64,000 nt of DNA. It comes from Mumia sp. Pv4-285. Its GTDB lineage: Bacteria > Actinomycetota > Actinomycetes > Propionibacteriales > Nocardioidaceae. The stretch is taken from NCBI RefSeq assembly GCF_041320275.1, contig NZ_CP162023.1:558001-622000 (forward strand), given 5' to 3'. A model generated the notes under the pieces. That model had not been told where the DNA came from. It saw only the letters and a list, made by a program, of their open reading frames with translations, and made no database searches. The translations under genes were made by a program, and so were the position numbers. Position 1 is the first letter of the stretch, and each line of letters starts with the position of its first letter. Positions 20,287-55,363 of this stretch are shown in pieces.

Positions 20287-20516
20287 CCCCGACCCCGCTG
20301 GTCGGGACCACCCAACCCCGGTGGTCGAGGAGGGCGAGGAACGAGCCCGTCTCGAGACCGGGTCTCGATCGCTTCGCGCCTCGACCAGCGGAAGCCGCCA
20401 GCGGAGGATCGAGACCGGGGTCTCGATCGCTTCGCGCCTCGACCAGCAGGGGTGGGGCCTCGACCAGCAGGGGTGGGGCCTCGACCAGCGGGGGTGGGGG
20501 CCTCGACCGGCACCAG
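20287..20516. repeat. Array of CTCGACCAGCGG / GGTCTCGATCG interspersed repeats
   Basis: About 230 bp made of variants of two short motifs. GGTCTCGATCGCTTCGCGCC followed by TCGACCAGC occurs at 20361 and 20419. CTCGACCAGCAGGGGTGGGG-type units follow in tandem from 20438 to about 20510, and related GGTCGAGG/GAGACCGG halves lie before. Several pairs are self-complementary and can form hairpins. It fills most of the gap between the kinase gene and the glycosyltransferase operon; no gene is visible in it. Confidence 0.85.
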
Positions 20517-50484: not shown

Positions 50485-51102
50485 GTGCGGTTGAAATTCC
50501 GACCGACTGATACAACGTTCTACGACCTCTTCACCGAGCTCGCCGGCCACCTCGTGGACGGCGCGAACCTGCTCGCGAAGATGCTCGACGAGACGTCCGA
50601 CCGAGACGCGATCGCGAAGCAGCTCAGCGAGGTCGAGCACGCCGCGGACGACGCGACACACGCCATCATCAACCGCGTGAACCAGACCTTCGTGACCCCG
50701 TTCGACCGCGAGGACATCTACAAGCTCGCAAGCAGTCTCGACGATGTCATGGACTTCATCGACGAGGCCGGCGACCTGGTCGTGCTCTATGACCTCGACG
50801 TGCTCCCGTCGCGGATGGCGTCGATGGTCGAGGTCATCCAGCGAGGCTGCGAGCTGACTGCCGAGGCCATGCCCCGGCTGCGGACCATGACCGACCTCTC
50901 CGAGTACTGGATCGAGATCAACCGCCTCGAGAACCAGGCCGACCGTGACTACCGCCGCATCCTCGCCAAGCTCTTCTCCGGTGAGTACAAGGCGCTCGAG
51001 GTCATGAAGCTCAAGGACGTCGTCGAGTCGCTCGAGGACGCCGTCGACGCACTCGAGTCCGTGGCCAACACGGTCGAGCAGATCGCAGTCAAGGAGTCCT
51101 GA
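50485..51102 (+). CDS. DUF47 (PhoU-like) protein paired with Pit transporter
   Basis: 205 residues, all helical, in the PhoU-like DUF47 pattern: FYDLFTELAGHLVDGANLLAKML, VEHAADDATHAIINRVNQTFVTPFDREDIYKLASSLDDVMDFIDEAGD with the metal-binding ED/DD clusters, and LENQADRDYRRILAKLF. It is encoded just before a Pit phosphate transporter, the usual pairing, and probably controls its activity. Start at GTG 50485, with GGGAG seven bases upstream. Confidence 0.9.
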   Translation: MRLKFRPTDTTFYDLFTELAGHLVDGANLLAKMLDETSDRDAIAKQLSEVEHAADDATHAIINRVNQTFVTPFDREDIYKLASSLDDVMDFIDEAGDLVVLYDLDVLPSRMASMVEVIQRGCELTAEAMPRLRTMTDLSEYWIEINRLENQADRDYRRILAKLFSGEYKALEVMKLKDVVESLEDAVDALESVANTVEQIAVKES

Positions 51103-51104
51103 GG

Positions 51105-52115
51105 GTGGATCTCACCCTGCTCATGGTGATCCTCGTGGTCAGCCTCGCGCTGGCTTTCGACTACACCAACGGCTTCCACGATGCGGCCAACGCGATCGCG
51201 ACGTCCGTGTCCACCCGGGCACTGACACCGCGCATCGCGCTCCTGATGGCCGCGATCATGAACTTCATCGGGGCGTTCCTCGGCACGGAGGTCGCCGACA
51301 CCGTCGGCAGCATCATCTCCTCAGGTGTCGAGGGCGCAGGCAACCACGGTCTCACCGTGGTGCTCAGTGCCCTCGTCGGCGCGATCGTCTGGAACCTCAT
51401 CACCTGGTACTTCGGGCTTCCGTCGTCGTCGTCGCACGCGCTGATCGGCGGTCTGGTCGGTGCCGGTGTGGCCTCGGCGAGCACCGTCGACTGGCCCACG
51501 GTCGTCGACAAGGTCGCGATCCCGATGGTCGTGTCGCCGCTGATCGGCTTCAGCGGCGCCTTCCTGCTGATGCTGGCGATCATGTGGATCTTCAAGAACC
51601 GCAACCCGCAGCGGACGATGCGCGGCTTCCGTCTCGCACAGACCGTGTCGGCAGCCGCGATGGCACTCGGCCACGGCCTGCAGGACGCCCAGAAGACGAT
51701 GGGTGTCATGTTCCTGGCGCTGCTCGCCGGCGGCTACGTCTCCGAAGGCGACGACATCCCGATCTGGGTGATGGCGAGCGCCGCAGCAGCGATCTCGCTC
51801 GGTACGTACTCCGGTGGTTGGCGCATCATGCGGACGCTCGGTCGACGGATCATCCACCTCGACCCGGCCCGCGGCTTCGCCTCGGAAGCGGTCGCTGCGA
51901 GCGTGCTCTACGTGATGGCGATCGGCCTCCACGCGCCGGTCTCGACGACCCACACCATCACGTCGTCGATCATGGGTGCCGGAGCGACCAAGCGGTTCAG
52001 CGCGGTCCGCTGGGGCGTCGCCCGCGGCATCGTCACCGCGTGGATCGTGACCATCCCCGCGGCGGCCACCGTCGCTGCGATCACCTACTGGATCTGCGCA
52101 CTCTTCCTGCCGTAG
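51105..52115 (+). CDS. pit: Low-affinity inorganic phosphate transporter (PiT family)
   Basis: 336 residues with ~10 TM helices. PiT signatures appear twice, as in the family: FDYTNGFHDAANAIATSV in the N-terminal repeat and ALGHGLQDAQKTMGVM in the C-terminal repeat, together with LPSSSSHALIGGLVGAG and HAPVSTTHTITSSIMGAG. It takes up metal-phosphate with protons. It begins two bases after the DUF47 stop (GTG 51105), so both are one operon. Confidence 0.94.
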   Translation: MDLTLLMVILVVSLALAFDYTNGFHDAANAIATSVSTRALTPRIALLMAAIMNFIGAFLGTEVADTVGSIISSGVEGAGNHGLTVVLSALVGAIVWNLITWYFGLPSSSSHALIGGLVGAGVASASTVDWPTVVDKVAIPMVVSPLIGFSGAFLLMLAIMWIFKNRNPQRTMRGFRLAQTVSAAAMALGHGLQDAQKTMGVMFLALLAGGYVSEGDDIPIWVMASAAAAISLGTYSGGWRIMRTLGRRIIHLDPARGFASEAVAASVLYVMAIGLHAPVSTTHTITSSIMGAGATKRFSAVRWGVARGIVTAWIVTIPAAATVAAITYWICALFLP

Positions 52116-52184: not shown

Positions 52185-53057
52185 TCAGCCGAAGCGGCCG
52201 GTGATGTAGGCCTCGGTCGACGAGTTGTCGGGGTTGGAGAAGATCTTCGTGGTCGGGCCCGACTCGATGAGCTGTCCCGGCTCACCCACCCCGGCCAGGT
52301 TGAAGAACGCGGTCTCGTCGGACACCCGTGCAGCCTGCTGCATGTTGTGCGTGACGATCACGATCGTGTAGTCGTTCTTGAGCTGACCGATGAGGTCCTC
52401 GATCGCGCTGGTCGAGATCGGGTCGAGCGCGGAGCAGGGCTCGTCCATGAGCAGCACCTGCGGCTCGACGGCGATCGCGCGCGCGATGCAGAGTCGCTGC
52501 TGCTGACCGCCCGACAGCCCGGCACCGGGTCGGTTGAGCCGGTCCTTGACCTCGTCCCAGAGGTTGGCGCCACGCAGCGACCGCTCGGCGATCGTGTCGG
52601 CCTCGTCCTTCTTGAGACGAGCACCGTTGAGGCGGACACCCGCAAGGACGTTGTCCTTGATCGACATCGTCGGGAACGGGTTCGGCCGCTGGAAGACCAT
52701 CCCGATCTCCCGGCGTACGAGCACCGGGTCGACACCCGGGGCGTACAGGTCACGGCCGTCGACACGGACGGTGCCGTCGACCCGCGCACCGGGAGCGACC
52801 TCGTGCATGCGGTTCAACGAGCGCAGGAAGGTCGACTTCCCGCACCCCGACGGGCCGATGATGGCGGTGACCGACTGCGCCTGGATCGCCAGCGTGATGC
52901 CGCGGACCGCGTGGACGTCGCCATAGTAGATGTCGAGGTCCTCGACGTCGATGCCGATGGCCGGCCGGCGCGAACCGGGACCGTCGGCGGCGCTCGCGGA
53001 CGTGGTGCGGGGAGCCGTCGCCGGGACGGACTCGCGGAGTACGGATCGCATGCTCAT
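52185..53057 (-). CDS. pstB: Phosphate ABC transporter ATP-binding protein
   Basis: 290 residues. Walker [23 protein letters not shown]-loop [15 protein letters not shown], signature [16 protein letters not shown], Walker [18 protein letters not shown]-loop VTHNMQQA, all as in PstB. About 35 extra N-terminal residues precede the core. It overlaps pstA by ATGA. Confidence 0.96.
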
Positions 53058-54139
53058 CGCTTGTCCTTGGGAGAGAAGAAGTAGGTCACGAGGCGCGCCA
53101 CGAGGTTGAGAGCCATGACGATCAGCATCAGCACGAGTGCGGCACCCCAGGCCCGTGCGATGGAGGGCTCCGGCGGGACGCCGGGGCTCATGATGGAGCT
53201 GTAGGTGAACACCGGCAGCGTCGCCATGCGTCCGTCGAACAGGTTGAAGTTGGTCGAGTCGGTGATCCCCACGGTGATGAGGAGCGGCGCCGTCTCGCCG
53301 ATCACGCGCGCGACGGCCAGCGTGATGCCGGTGACCAGACCGGCCATCGCCGTCGGCAGCACCACCTTGACGATCGTCCGCCAGCGGGGGACACCCAGCG
53401 CGTACGCCGCCTCCCGCAGCTCGTTGGGCACGAGCTGGAGCATCTCCTCCGACGAACGCACCACCACCGGCGTCATCAGCACCGTCAGGGCGACCGCGCC
53501 GGCGAAGCCCATCCGAACCCCTGGTCCGAAGAAGACGACGAACAGGGCGTAGGCGAAGAGGCCGGCGACGATCGACGGGATGCCCGTCATGACGTCGACG
53601 AGGAAGCGGATGGCCTTCGCGAGGCGGCCATCACCGCCGTACTCGACGAGGTAGATCGCGGTCAGCAGTCCCAACGGCACCGACATCGCGGCGGTGGCGG
53701 CGGTGATGATGACCGTGCCCCAGATCGCGTGGTAGATGCCGCCACCCTCGCCGACGACGTTGCGCATGGAGTACGAGAAGAACTCCGGCGCGAGCACTGG
53801 GAGGCCGTTCTTGACGACGGTCCACAGGATGGAGACGAGCGGGACCATCGCCAGCGCGAAGGCGCTCGAGACGACGACGGTCACGAGCCGGTCGAACGCC
53901 TTGCGTCGGCCCTCGACCGCGTACGAGAGGAGAGGGAACCCGACCACGACGACGGCCCAGCCTGCGAGCAGCGAGGGGATGAGCGCGAGCCCGAGGCCGG
54001 CGTGCAGCGCCGACGTGAGGACGACGGCGATCGCCAGCGCGACCCAGCCCGAGCGGCGTGGCAGCTGCGGGTGGTGCCAGCTGCTCAGCTGCGCGGGAGC
54101 GTCCTCGCGCTTCGGCGCCGGAGGTGCGGTGGTGCTCAT
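53054..54139 (-). CDS. pstA: Phosphate ABC transporter permease PstA
   Basis: 361 residues. N-terminal hydrophilic stretch, then TM helices; the PstA part shows [112 protein letters not shown] (EAA loop). ATG 54139 overlaps the stop of the second mini-ORF by ATGA. An extension upstream would run into the 89-bp repeats. Confidence 0.94.
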
Positions 54140-54228
54140 GCGTTGCCTTCCTTGCCTGAGCGCTGCGGTACCTCGCTCCGGCACGCCTCGTTCCTCGGCG
54201 TACCTCCGCTCCGGTTCCTCGCGCTCAT
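54136..54228 (-). CDS. 30-residue mini-ORF 2 in the pstC-pstA gap
   Basis: ATG 54228 to TGA ending at 54136 encodes 30 residues, identical in sequence to mini-ORF 1. It starts MSARNRSGG and ends RSGKEGNA. Its stop overlaps the pstA ATG and its start overlaps the stop of mini-ORF 1, both by ATGA. GGAAGG lies six bases before the next start. The peptide is basic and has one Cys; I cannot say whether it is functional. Confidence 0.45.
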   Translation of the reverse strand: MSARNRSGGTPRNEACRSEVPQRSGKEGNA

Positions 54229-54314
54229 GCGTTGCCTTCCTTGCCTGAGCGCTGCGGTACCTCGCTCCGGCACGCCTCGTTCCTCGGCGTACCTCCGCTC
54301 CGGTTCCGCGCGCT
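54137..54314. repeat. 89-bp tandem duplication between pstC and pstA
   Basis: Two 89-bp units, 54137-54225 and 54226-54314, differ at a single base. Each carries a hairpin core (GGTACGCC and GGCGTGCC arms, read on the coding strand) and ends with GGAAGGCAACGC before an ATG. The sequence after the second unit (from 54315) resumes with the original ATGCGTTGG of pstC. Confidence 0.9.
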
Positions 54315-54317
54315 CAT
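54225..54317 (-). CDS. 30-residue mini-ORF 1 in the pstC-pstA gap
   Basis: ATG 54317 to TGA ending at 54225 encodes 30 residues. Its ATG overlaps the pstC TGA by 4 bp and its own TGA overlaps the ATG of mini-ORF 2, keeping translation coupled along the transcript. No homologue is recognised; it may be a by-product of repeat insertion. Confidence 0.45.
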   Translation of the reverse strand: MSARNRSGGTPRNEACRSEVPQRSGKEGNA

Positions 54318-55279
54318 GCGTTGGCTCCCGAGAACTCCTTGCGCCGGTTCACGATGGCGCGTGCGGCGAAGTTGACCGCGAAGGTGATGACGAAGAGCAC
54401 CAGACCGGACGCGATGAGTGCGTTCACGGTGAGCCCCGAGGCCTCGTTGAACTGGAGCGCGATGTTGGCGGGGATGGTGCTCGGGTTGGTCGAGCTGATC
54501 AGGTTGAACGTGACGACGCCCGACGCCGAGAGGACCATCGCGACTGCCATCGTCTCGCCGAGGGCGCGGCCGAGACCGAGCATCGCGCCGCCGATCATGC
54601 CCGAGCGGCCGTGCGGAAGGACGACAGTCCGGATCATCTCCCAGCGGGTCGCGCCGAGCGCGAGCGCTGCCTCCTCCAGGAGGACCGGCGTCTGGCGGAA
54701 GACCTCGCGGGCGATCGCGGTCACGATCGGCAGGATCATCACCGCGAGCACGACGGCTGCCGTGAGGATGGTGCGGCCGGTGGCGGACGCGGGACCTGCG
54801 AAGAACGGGAGGAAGCCGAGGTTCGCCTCGAGCCACTCGAACGGCCCGACGAGCTCTCCGGCGAGCACGCGCATGCCCCAGAGCCCGAAGACCACGGAGG
54901 GCACAGCAGCGAGGAGGTCGATCACGTAGCCGAGCGTGTGACCGAGTCGTCGTGGCACGTAGTAGGTGACGAAGAGCGCGACCGCGACGGCGAGAGGCAC
55001 GGCGATCACGAGGGCGAGAGCCGCGCTCCAGAGCGTGCCGAAGACGAGCGGCAGGACCCAGGACAGGAACGACTCGCCGCTCTTCACCTCGTCGGGCGAG
55101 GCGGTGATGCCGGGGATCCCTTCGGCCGTCAGGAAGATCGCGACCCCGGCGAGGATCGCGACGATGGCCAGAGCGGCGCCCTTCGACAGTCCCAGGAACA
55201 GGCGGTCACCGAGTCGGCGCTTCGCCGGGCCGTGCTCGGCAGCACCCCGCGGTGGGGACGGTGTTGAGGTGTCGGTCAC
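54314..55279 (-). CDS. pstC: Phosphate ABC transporter permease PstC
   Basis: 321 residues. Six TM helices with the PstC features FLSWVLPLVFGTLWSAALALVIAVPLAVAVALFVTYY, YVIDLLAAVPSVVFGLWGM and EEAALALGATRWEMIRTVVLPHGRSGMIGGAMLGLGRALGETMAVAM (EAA loop). GTG 55279 follows GGAGGACC at eight bases and is preferred over a longer start. Confidence 0.95.
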   Translation of the reverse strand: MTDTSTPSPPRGAAEHGPAKRRLGDRLFLGLSKGAALAIVAILAGVAIFLTAEGIPGITASPDEVKSGESFLSWVLPLVFGTLWSAALALVIAVPLAVAVALFVTYYVPRRLGHTLGYVIDLLAAVPSVVFGLWGMRVLAGELVGPFEWLEANLGFLPFFAGPASATGRTILTAAVVLAVMILPIVTAIAREVFRQTPVLLEEAALALGATRWEMIRTVVLPHGRSGMIGGAMLGLGRALGETMAVAMVLSASGVVTFNLISSTNPSTIPANIALQFNEASGLTVNALIASGLVLFVITFAVNFAARAIVNRRKEFSGANA

Positions 55280-55316
55280 TGAGTGGTCCTCCGGTGGAGA
55301 AGTCGGGCGGGGCATA

Positions 55317-55363
55317 CCTGCGGGTGGCACTCCGATCCCCCGATTCGGGGTACCACCCGCAGG
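55317..55363 (-). terminator. Hairpin between pstS and pstC
   Basis: CCTGCGGGTGG (55317-55327) pairs with CCACCCGCAGG (55353-55363), with an inner CCCC/GGGG pair. It directly follows the pstS stop at 55368. Such hairpins typically raise the amount of binding-protein mRNA relative to the permease genes. Confidence 0.7.

Follow-up and report, generated by a model that had tools for sequence, protein, structure and literature searches.

Tandem units of a dispersed actinobacterial hairpin family between pstC and pstA in Mumia

Background

The mycobacterial interspersed repetitive units (MIRUs) insert into the tetranucleotide DTGA and are not known to have dyad symmetry. Several other kinds of short elements are scattered through bacterial genomes. 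The REP/BIME palindromes, which go with RAYT transposases, are short imperfect palindromes dispersed between genes and sometimes arranged in tandem. Short derivatives of the IS200/IS605 type, along with HEARO-linked elements, insert at a fixed tetranucleotide, and site-specific elements residing at the 3' ends of conserved genes form a further general kind. The MIRUs themselves, reportedly described by Supply et al. in 1997, are presented in PMC2734929 as scattered units of 40-100 bp with variable copy number. PMC12548453 treats them as apparently mobile and as inserting at start codons, where an ORF is coupled at -4 nt to the gene of the site, and PMC4213456 gives two length forms, of 77 and 53 bp.

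Comparison with known elements

The junction between pstC and pstA in the genome of a member of the genus Mumia carries repeats for which the MIRU, with the same coupled-ORF geometry, is probably the closest known kind, the two being likened by description. The units at hand are of 89 bp, scattered and also in tandem, with two, one, a partial or no unit at one and the same junction. Stop/start overlaps of -4 nt are seen at the junctions in the window (the 64,000-nucleotide stretch of DNA analyzed here), and 27 of 37 copies of the coupling type lead into a gene or a further unit. The target is likewise DTGA, with element-free sites reading ATGA or GTGA, and there are likewise two length forms, of 89 and 50 bp from start to start; taking the MIRU lengths as given above, all four lengths equal 3n-4. 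Unlike the MIRUs, the units are hosted by Mumia, a member of the Nocardioidaceae and not a mycobacterium, and they possess a conserved covarying hairpin (z of -6.0 and -4.9), target-matched arms and a further class of copies located at gene 3' ends.

The remaining kinds share individual traits with the family. Like the REP/BIME palindromes it is an interspersed palindromic repeat that is sometimes in tandem, but its insertion is anchored on stop and start codons and its arms vary with the target. The Y1/RAYT transposase domain PF01797 was detected in none of 12 carrier genomes, the window genome included, as against five positives among 14 control genomes. The IS200/IS605 and HEARO-type elements likewise combine a hairpin with a short target (ATGA or GTGA, for instance). 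The present family differs from them: Y1 has no match in any of the 12 carriers searched, a repeat of the target stands on either side and complementarity to the target extends up to 12 nt (in the murA copy of the window genome). The site-specific elements of gene 3' ends resemble the family in that identical conserved gene ends are occupied in different genera, the target is directly repeated, and tandem arrays and scars occur, but a length of ~90 bp leaves no room for an integrase gene. Literature searches on HEARO targets, REP in Nocardioides, palindromes at actinobacterial stop codons or housekeeping genes, coupling MITEs and actinobacterial RAYT returned nothing relevant. The principle of a mobile repeat at a start codon that leaves a coupled ORF is known from the MIRU, as PMC12548453 sets out; the conserved hairpin, the target-matched arms and the gene-end class look new, so far as the literature was searched.

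Anatomy of the pstC-pstA junction

The initial annotation of the window had described an 89-bp unit duplicated with one mismatch between pstC and pstA. The sequence, the list of ORFs, repeat finding and self-alignment agree on this duplication: TRF reports a period of 89 with 99% matches and a score of 373, the top of 11 rows in the window (the runner-up scores 131), and self-alignment of the junction returns two 89-nt copies that are 99% alike. The chain of pstC, two mini-ORFs and pstA described there was also recovered, with the minus strand reading pstC, ATGA, mini-ORF 1, ATGA, mini-ORF 2, ATGA and pstA in three 4-nt overlaps, and with a GGAAGG six bases before the next ATG (Table 1). The two 30-codon peptides are indeed identical, the sole mismatch between the units (CGG/AGG) being synonymous. 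Chance as an origin of these units is excluded by the homologous unit at the same site of M. xiangluensis together with the copies found elsewhere in the genome. No T-run follows the hairpins of this junction in the window sequence.

Table 1. Features of the pstC-pstA junction (positions in the window)
Feature	Position	Strand	Basis
pstC, phosphate ABC transporter permease	54314..55330	minus	ORF; NCBIfam TIGR02138 above cut-off
pstC stop TGA	54316-54314	minus	overlaps mini-ORF 1 start as ATGA
Unit 1 = mini-ORF 1, 30 codons + TGA, ATGA at both ends	54225..54317	minus	R1 match, 107.2 bits
Unit 2 = mini-ORF 2, same peptide, ATGA at both ends	54136..54228	minus	R1 match, 109.6 bits
Unit 1 hairpin: outer arm GC.TGAGCGC with GCGCTCAGGC, inner stem GGTACGCC with GGCGTGCC	54243..54319	minus	fold -48.7 kcal/mol, z -6.0; family covariation
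Unit 2 hairpin	54154..54230	minus	fold -43.9 kcal/mol, z -4.9
GGAAGG, Shine-Dalgarno-like, 6 nt 5' of mini-ORF 2 ATG	54235..54240	minus	sequence; unpaired linker in fold
GGAAGG, Shine-Dalgarno-like, 6 nt 5' of pstA ATG	54146..54151	minus	sequence; unpaired in fold
pstA, phosphate ABC transporter permease; ATG overlaps mini-ORF 2 stop	53054..54139	minus	ORF; NCBIfam TIGR00974 above cut-off

Two further features of the window were observed. The tandem array that scores highest after the 89-bp one is a 21-bp repeat of 3.6 copies (20436-20512; score 131). Adjoining the pst operon, in convergent orientation on the plus strand (50485-52115), lie two genes that by eye are PhoU/DUF47-like and PiT phosphate transporter-like.

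A dispersed family of hairpin-forming elements

The 89-base unit is a member of a dispersed family of ~90-bp hairpin-forming interspersed elements in actinobacteria, and not a private duplication of this junction. Its host is a Mumia of the family Nocardioidaceae, whose PstA has its best match, at 94%, in M. xiangluensis. A DNA search of this genome yields four copies of the unit and the covariance model R3 seven at E up to 1, the weakest with 3.4e-6. The pstC-pstA junction holds two of the seven and gatC-gatA one; a tandem pair follows murA, a single copy follows gyrB, and a short form lies between two ABC permease-like genes. The initial annotation had suggested searching this genome for other 89-bp units at ATGA junctions, and the gatC-gatA and ABC permease-like copies do lie at such junctions, unrelated to pstC-pstA. 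With E-values that are rough for both models, and with strict filters in searches of more than 40 genomes, R1 has 71 matches at E up to 0.01, spread over 31 of the 294 Nocardioidaceae genomes, and R3 has 97 at E up to 0.001, spread over 36 of them. Across the class, R3 matches 12 of 394 genomes, seven of them from four families other than the Nocardioidaceae, with the matches in three of these seven (G431, G496 and G515) weaker than 1e-5. Rfam has no match at the gathering score in 18 loci and none at E up to 1 in positions 53900-54500 of the window. A match in genome G045, in which R3 finds none, looks by eye to be coding sequence and was dropped.

Folded singly, the units form long hairpins, with z-scores of -6.0 and -4.9 in the window, -3.2 in M. 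xiangluensis, -1.9 at gatC-gatA and -1.0 in genome G013, and unusually good folding is thus not general to every unit. The hairpin is common to the aligned copies and its covariation is strong. In a set of 45 that mixes coupling-type and gene-end copies, aligned by MAFFT and not by the model and with the structure taken from one aligned member, 87.1% of cells pair, as against 70.7% in shuffles and at most 43.1% in slid structures, and 170 cells are altered on both sides compared to 60.0 after shuffling. The outer arms taken alone pair in 75.5% of cells (54.2% shuffled; 42.3% for the best slide).

Filled, empty and scarred sites in Mumia

Comparison of the pstC-pstA junction in related genomes, which had been suggested along with the duplication, reveals two, one, partial and no units across Mumia. 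There are two in the window genome, one in M. xiangluensis and none in M. quercus, where a plain ATGA overlap is found. In Mumia zg.B17 a unit has suffered a deletion and its 5' part is fused in frame to pstA, for which the ATG of the element serves as start, with codon 71 as the next start codon in frame.

Seven further Mumia loci exhibit empty, partial or scarred sites on genome comparison. The gatC-gatA site and the ABC permease junction are each empty in all five other Mumia genomes. At hrcA-dnaJ (names assigned by eye) the element is present only in genome G001, taken to be M. xiangluensis, and lacking in five of five others; no stop/start overlap existed there before the insertion, which indicates that the target is DTGA and not coupling as such. 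L040, a GTGA junction upstream of a dihydroorotate-dehydrogenase-subunit-like gene (NCBIfam, below cut-off), is filled in M. xiangluensis and element-free in all four genomes read, the automatic alignment being poor on the left and the single GTGAGC plain in each sequence. Similarly, the site L035 before a P450-like gene (NCBIfam, below cut-off) is filled in M. xiangluensis, with nothing in three others read; in the window genome the 3' end of the element has apparently left a scar.

The gene-end sites are equally variable. The element behind gyrB is present in the window genome and M. xiangluensis and absent from G002, G004 and G005, and G003 has a doubled GACATCTGA-like word without the element. 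At murA there are two units in the window genome and a truncated unit in G002, and M. xiangluensis shows a doubled word; R3 has no match there in G003-G005, of which G003 displays a different hairpin-like stretch with GAGGAACGAG. G003 also contains, at another place, a 54-nt short form whose deletion is apparently the same as that of the ABC permease copy, and since its ABC site is empty the short form too seems to have moved. Altogether, filled and element-free states across Mumia genomes are seen at five DTGA loci besides pstC-pstA, with ATGA or GTGA at the element-free sites. Along with the empty site of M. quercus and the single unit of M. xiangluensis, these make the earlier proposal of insertion at an ancestral ATGA junction, with the overlaps kept, well supported.

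Two classes of copies and the phase of the core

R3 has 103 non-overlapping matches in 96 loci (three places in G139 and the loci L226 and L227 of G400 lie outside these), of which 87 were parsed and 16 dropped. The parsed copies comprise 37 of the coupling type, L074 and L102 being counted here, 33 at gene ends and 17 others. The stop of a GC3-supported upstream gene falls within -20 to +15 of the core in 70 of the 87, as against 3.1% of 2902 control positions (coupling 32/37, gene-end 25/33, others 13/17). It is located exactly at -7 in 26 coupling copies and exactly at -1 in 25 gene-end copies, with 0.14% of controls at either position. The R1 set gives a comparable picture (53/71 versus 1.9% of 3036 controls).

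By NCBIfam matches above cut-off, the genes downstream of coupling types include those for GatA, a BagB ATPase, the small subunit of carbamoyl-phosphate synthase and YvcK. Hosts of gene-end copies similarly identified, with one or two examples each, are RpmJ, ketol-acid reductoisomerase and GroEL; MurA matches one NCBIfam model above cut-off, and the best match of GyrB, whose sequence is incomplete, lies below it. Going by their C-termini, RplK and YebC are presumably hosts as well. The same host C-termini recur across the gene-end set, and the copies at the stop codons of murA, gyrB, ilvC, rpmJ and groEL are without the coupling phase. Three loci in other genomes deserve a mention. At L211 (~1501-1601 in G611, of another family) tandem element-like units are situated at the TAG stop of a gene that we take to be GroEL-like from its C-terminus GGMGGMDF, with an arm nearly complementary to its last codons. 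L219 (G467) and L225 (G400) hold three-unit tandem arrays with 92-94 bp spacing behind gene ends that we take to be YebC-like and RplK-like respectively.

Among the 35 R1 units flanked by DTGA on either side, the length is 3n in 30 and the frame open in 29; three of the six exceptions, i.e. the five that break phase and the one interrupted, come from G023, where three of four DTGA-flanked units break the rule. Core lengths divisible by three occur in 29 of 37 coupling copies versus seven of 33 gene-end copies (Fisher 3e-6, on counts in which related copies are not independent). In these GC-rich cores stops are rare, with 35, 30 and 24 of 37 open in frames 0, +1 and +2; hence an open frame alone proves little, and it is the length phase that carries the argument. 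That a mini-ORF merely ends in DTGA (31/37) is a weak test, as 87 of 165 control ORFs do likewise. When its stop has to overlap the start opening a gene or the next unit, 27 of 37 do so, against 91 of 310 control DTGA ORFs, and ten fail. In L100 and L106 the same core is read in a different frame and the ORF nonetheless closes on DTGA, which implies that the geometry and not the peptide is kept there. Deviations of other kinds include L033, which stops after 7 codons, L037, which ends in TGAATG without overlap, and some units that read another frame or encode 17 residues. Two of the mini-ORF peptides, searched against Pfam, have no match at E up to 1.

Arms that match the target

In gene-end copies the sequence to the left of the core consists of the last codons of the upstream gene, and that to the right (T') is complementary to those codons. 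Arm positions 5-9, which lie outside the R1 model, match on average at 3.66 of 5 in the R1 set (65 of 71 parsed), compared to 2.70 with permuted partners (sd 0.10, maximum 3.00 in 1000). When copies with a TGAGY arm are set aside and each distinct arm is counted once (21), the values are 3.67 versus 2.67. The figures for the R3 set, 6.61 versus 4.32 of 9, are biased upwards because R3 models the arms. For the murA copy of the window genome this match extends over 12 nt. The flank is also directly repeated on the right, over 7.92 nt as against 4.92 when permuted (sd 0.18; 8.06 versus 4.67 in the R3 set), and in 28 of 30 coupling units the first bases of the left and right DTGA agree (A/A 23, G/G 5, A/G 1, G/T 1), which fits a duplication of the target.

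The word GACATC precedes TGA in 12 of 33 gene-end copies; among 199 other gene ends of these loci it does so once, and among 65 window genes never. The Fisher value overstates the difference, since some of the 12 may be inherited and not repeated insertions. MurA C-termini account for six of the 12 and GyrB C-termini for three; the others are a second tandem unit (L087), L162, with a frame open for fewer than 37 codons, and the unnamed L167. Behind the gene-end element of L162 (~1501-1700, M. xiangluensis) we also observed a ladder of ~28-nt repeats composed of arm and target fragments (GTCATCTGTCGGTCGTAC...), which looks like repeated copying of the arm-target part by itself.

The matched arm can be read in three ways: as a guide for insertion, as a copy of the target made when the element inserts, or as a sequence corrected afterwards through selection or template switching. 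It is conceivable, though we hold it as a tentative idea, that these are minimal mobile elements choosing their sites by base pairing. The variable arm T' outside the constant core would then pair with the final 7-12 nt of its target gene, as far as the stop codon, and the target would be repeated on the right. Elements with the same arm (e.g. AGATGTC) would enter genes that are unrelated apart from a common target word, such as the GACATC-TGA of MurA and GyrB; a change of arm would retarget the element, and landing on DTGA would give rise to the coupling type.

Origin of the units and alternative explanations

We consider it probable (roughly 0.8) that a member of this non-autonomous family of ~90-bp mobile hairpins inserted at the pstC/pstA ATGA and was then doubled, and that its mini-ORF geometry could let ribosomes pass from pstC to pstA. 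This reading draws on the copies, the hairpin covariation, the empty sites, the junction geometry and the 3n lengths observed above. Insertion would have occurred at the ATGA common to the pstC stop and the pstA start, and the second unit may derive from tandem duplication or a second hit at the same junction. As for the way the element moves, we infer that insertion duplicates the DTGA target, whereby the interior would become a short ORF running from the upstream stop to the downstream start. A ribosome ending pstC could restart on the overlapping ATG and read mini-ORF 1 and then mini-ORF 2, opening both hairpins; on ending mini-ORF 2 beside the exposed GGAAGG it could restart on pstA, which would be the benefit of mini-ORF translation to that gene. 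The initial annotation had held that the mini-ORFs keep pstC and pstA translationally coupled. The geometry behind this claim is sound and fits the 3n lengths of the coupling type, and translation itself is a prediction from sequence. The initial annotation was right on anatomy and insertion, and missed the dispersed hairpin family, the copies at stop codons without coupling phase and the target-matched arms.

The alternative that we regard as possible but doubtful holds that the hairpin matters and not the mini-ORF, i.e. that a REP-like mobile palindrome is tolerated at stop codons, or useful there for mRNA stability or termination, with the ORF a by-product of DTGA in GC-rich DNA. The many copies in gene-end phase at murA, gyrB, rpmJ, ilvC and groEL, the strong covariation in a set that mixes both classes and the mostly open frames all agree with it; but the 3-base phase is kept by coupling-type copies (29/37) and not by gene-end ones (7/33), and in L100 and L106 the shifted frame of the core is compensated such that the ORF still closes on DTGA. 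Internal regulation of pstA by the units, as attenuator or internal promoter, appears unlikely: they form strong hairpins, and the MIRU-bearing senX3-regX3 region is reported in PMC4213456 to drive senX3-independent expression of regX3, but the units occur in unrelated operons and number two, one or none at this junction across Mumia, and no T-run follows the hairpin in the window.

We think it very unlikely that the 30-residue peptide is itself the functional product. The identity of the peptides of both units and the similar peptide in many copies would accord with such a role, but this similarity follows from the conserved hairpin DNA, there are units in other frames or with 17 residues, and the two peptides compared with Pfam drew no match at E up to 1. 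Least probable of all is that the pstC-pstA junction was simply duplicated in place, with no mobile element involved, despite the two adjacent near-identical copies, the commonness of tandem duplication and the tandem units at other sites. The single unit in M. xiangluensis, the lack of any in M. quercus and the homologous units at other junctions, in other genera and in other families all speak against it, and only the step from one to two units may be local.

Conclusions

Insertion of a mobile hairpin that leaves pstC and pstA joined by mini-ORFs, the reading we favor, suggests that the trick of the MIRUs, by which a parasitic repeat lands on a start codon and the genes are left coupled, is not confined to mycobacteria. 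The states with zero, one, two and fused units at pstC-pstA constitute natural experiments for termination-reinitiation. Finally, the target-matched arms and the recurrence of the same conserved gene ends across genera suggest an unexplained form of site choice for an element of 90 bp.
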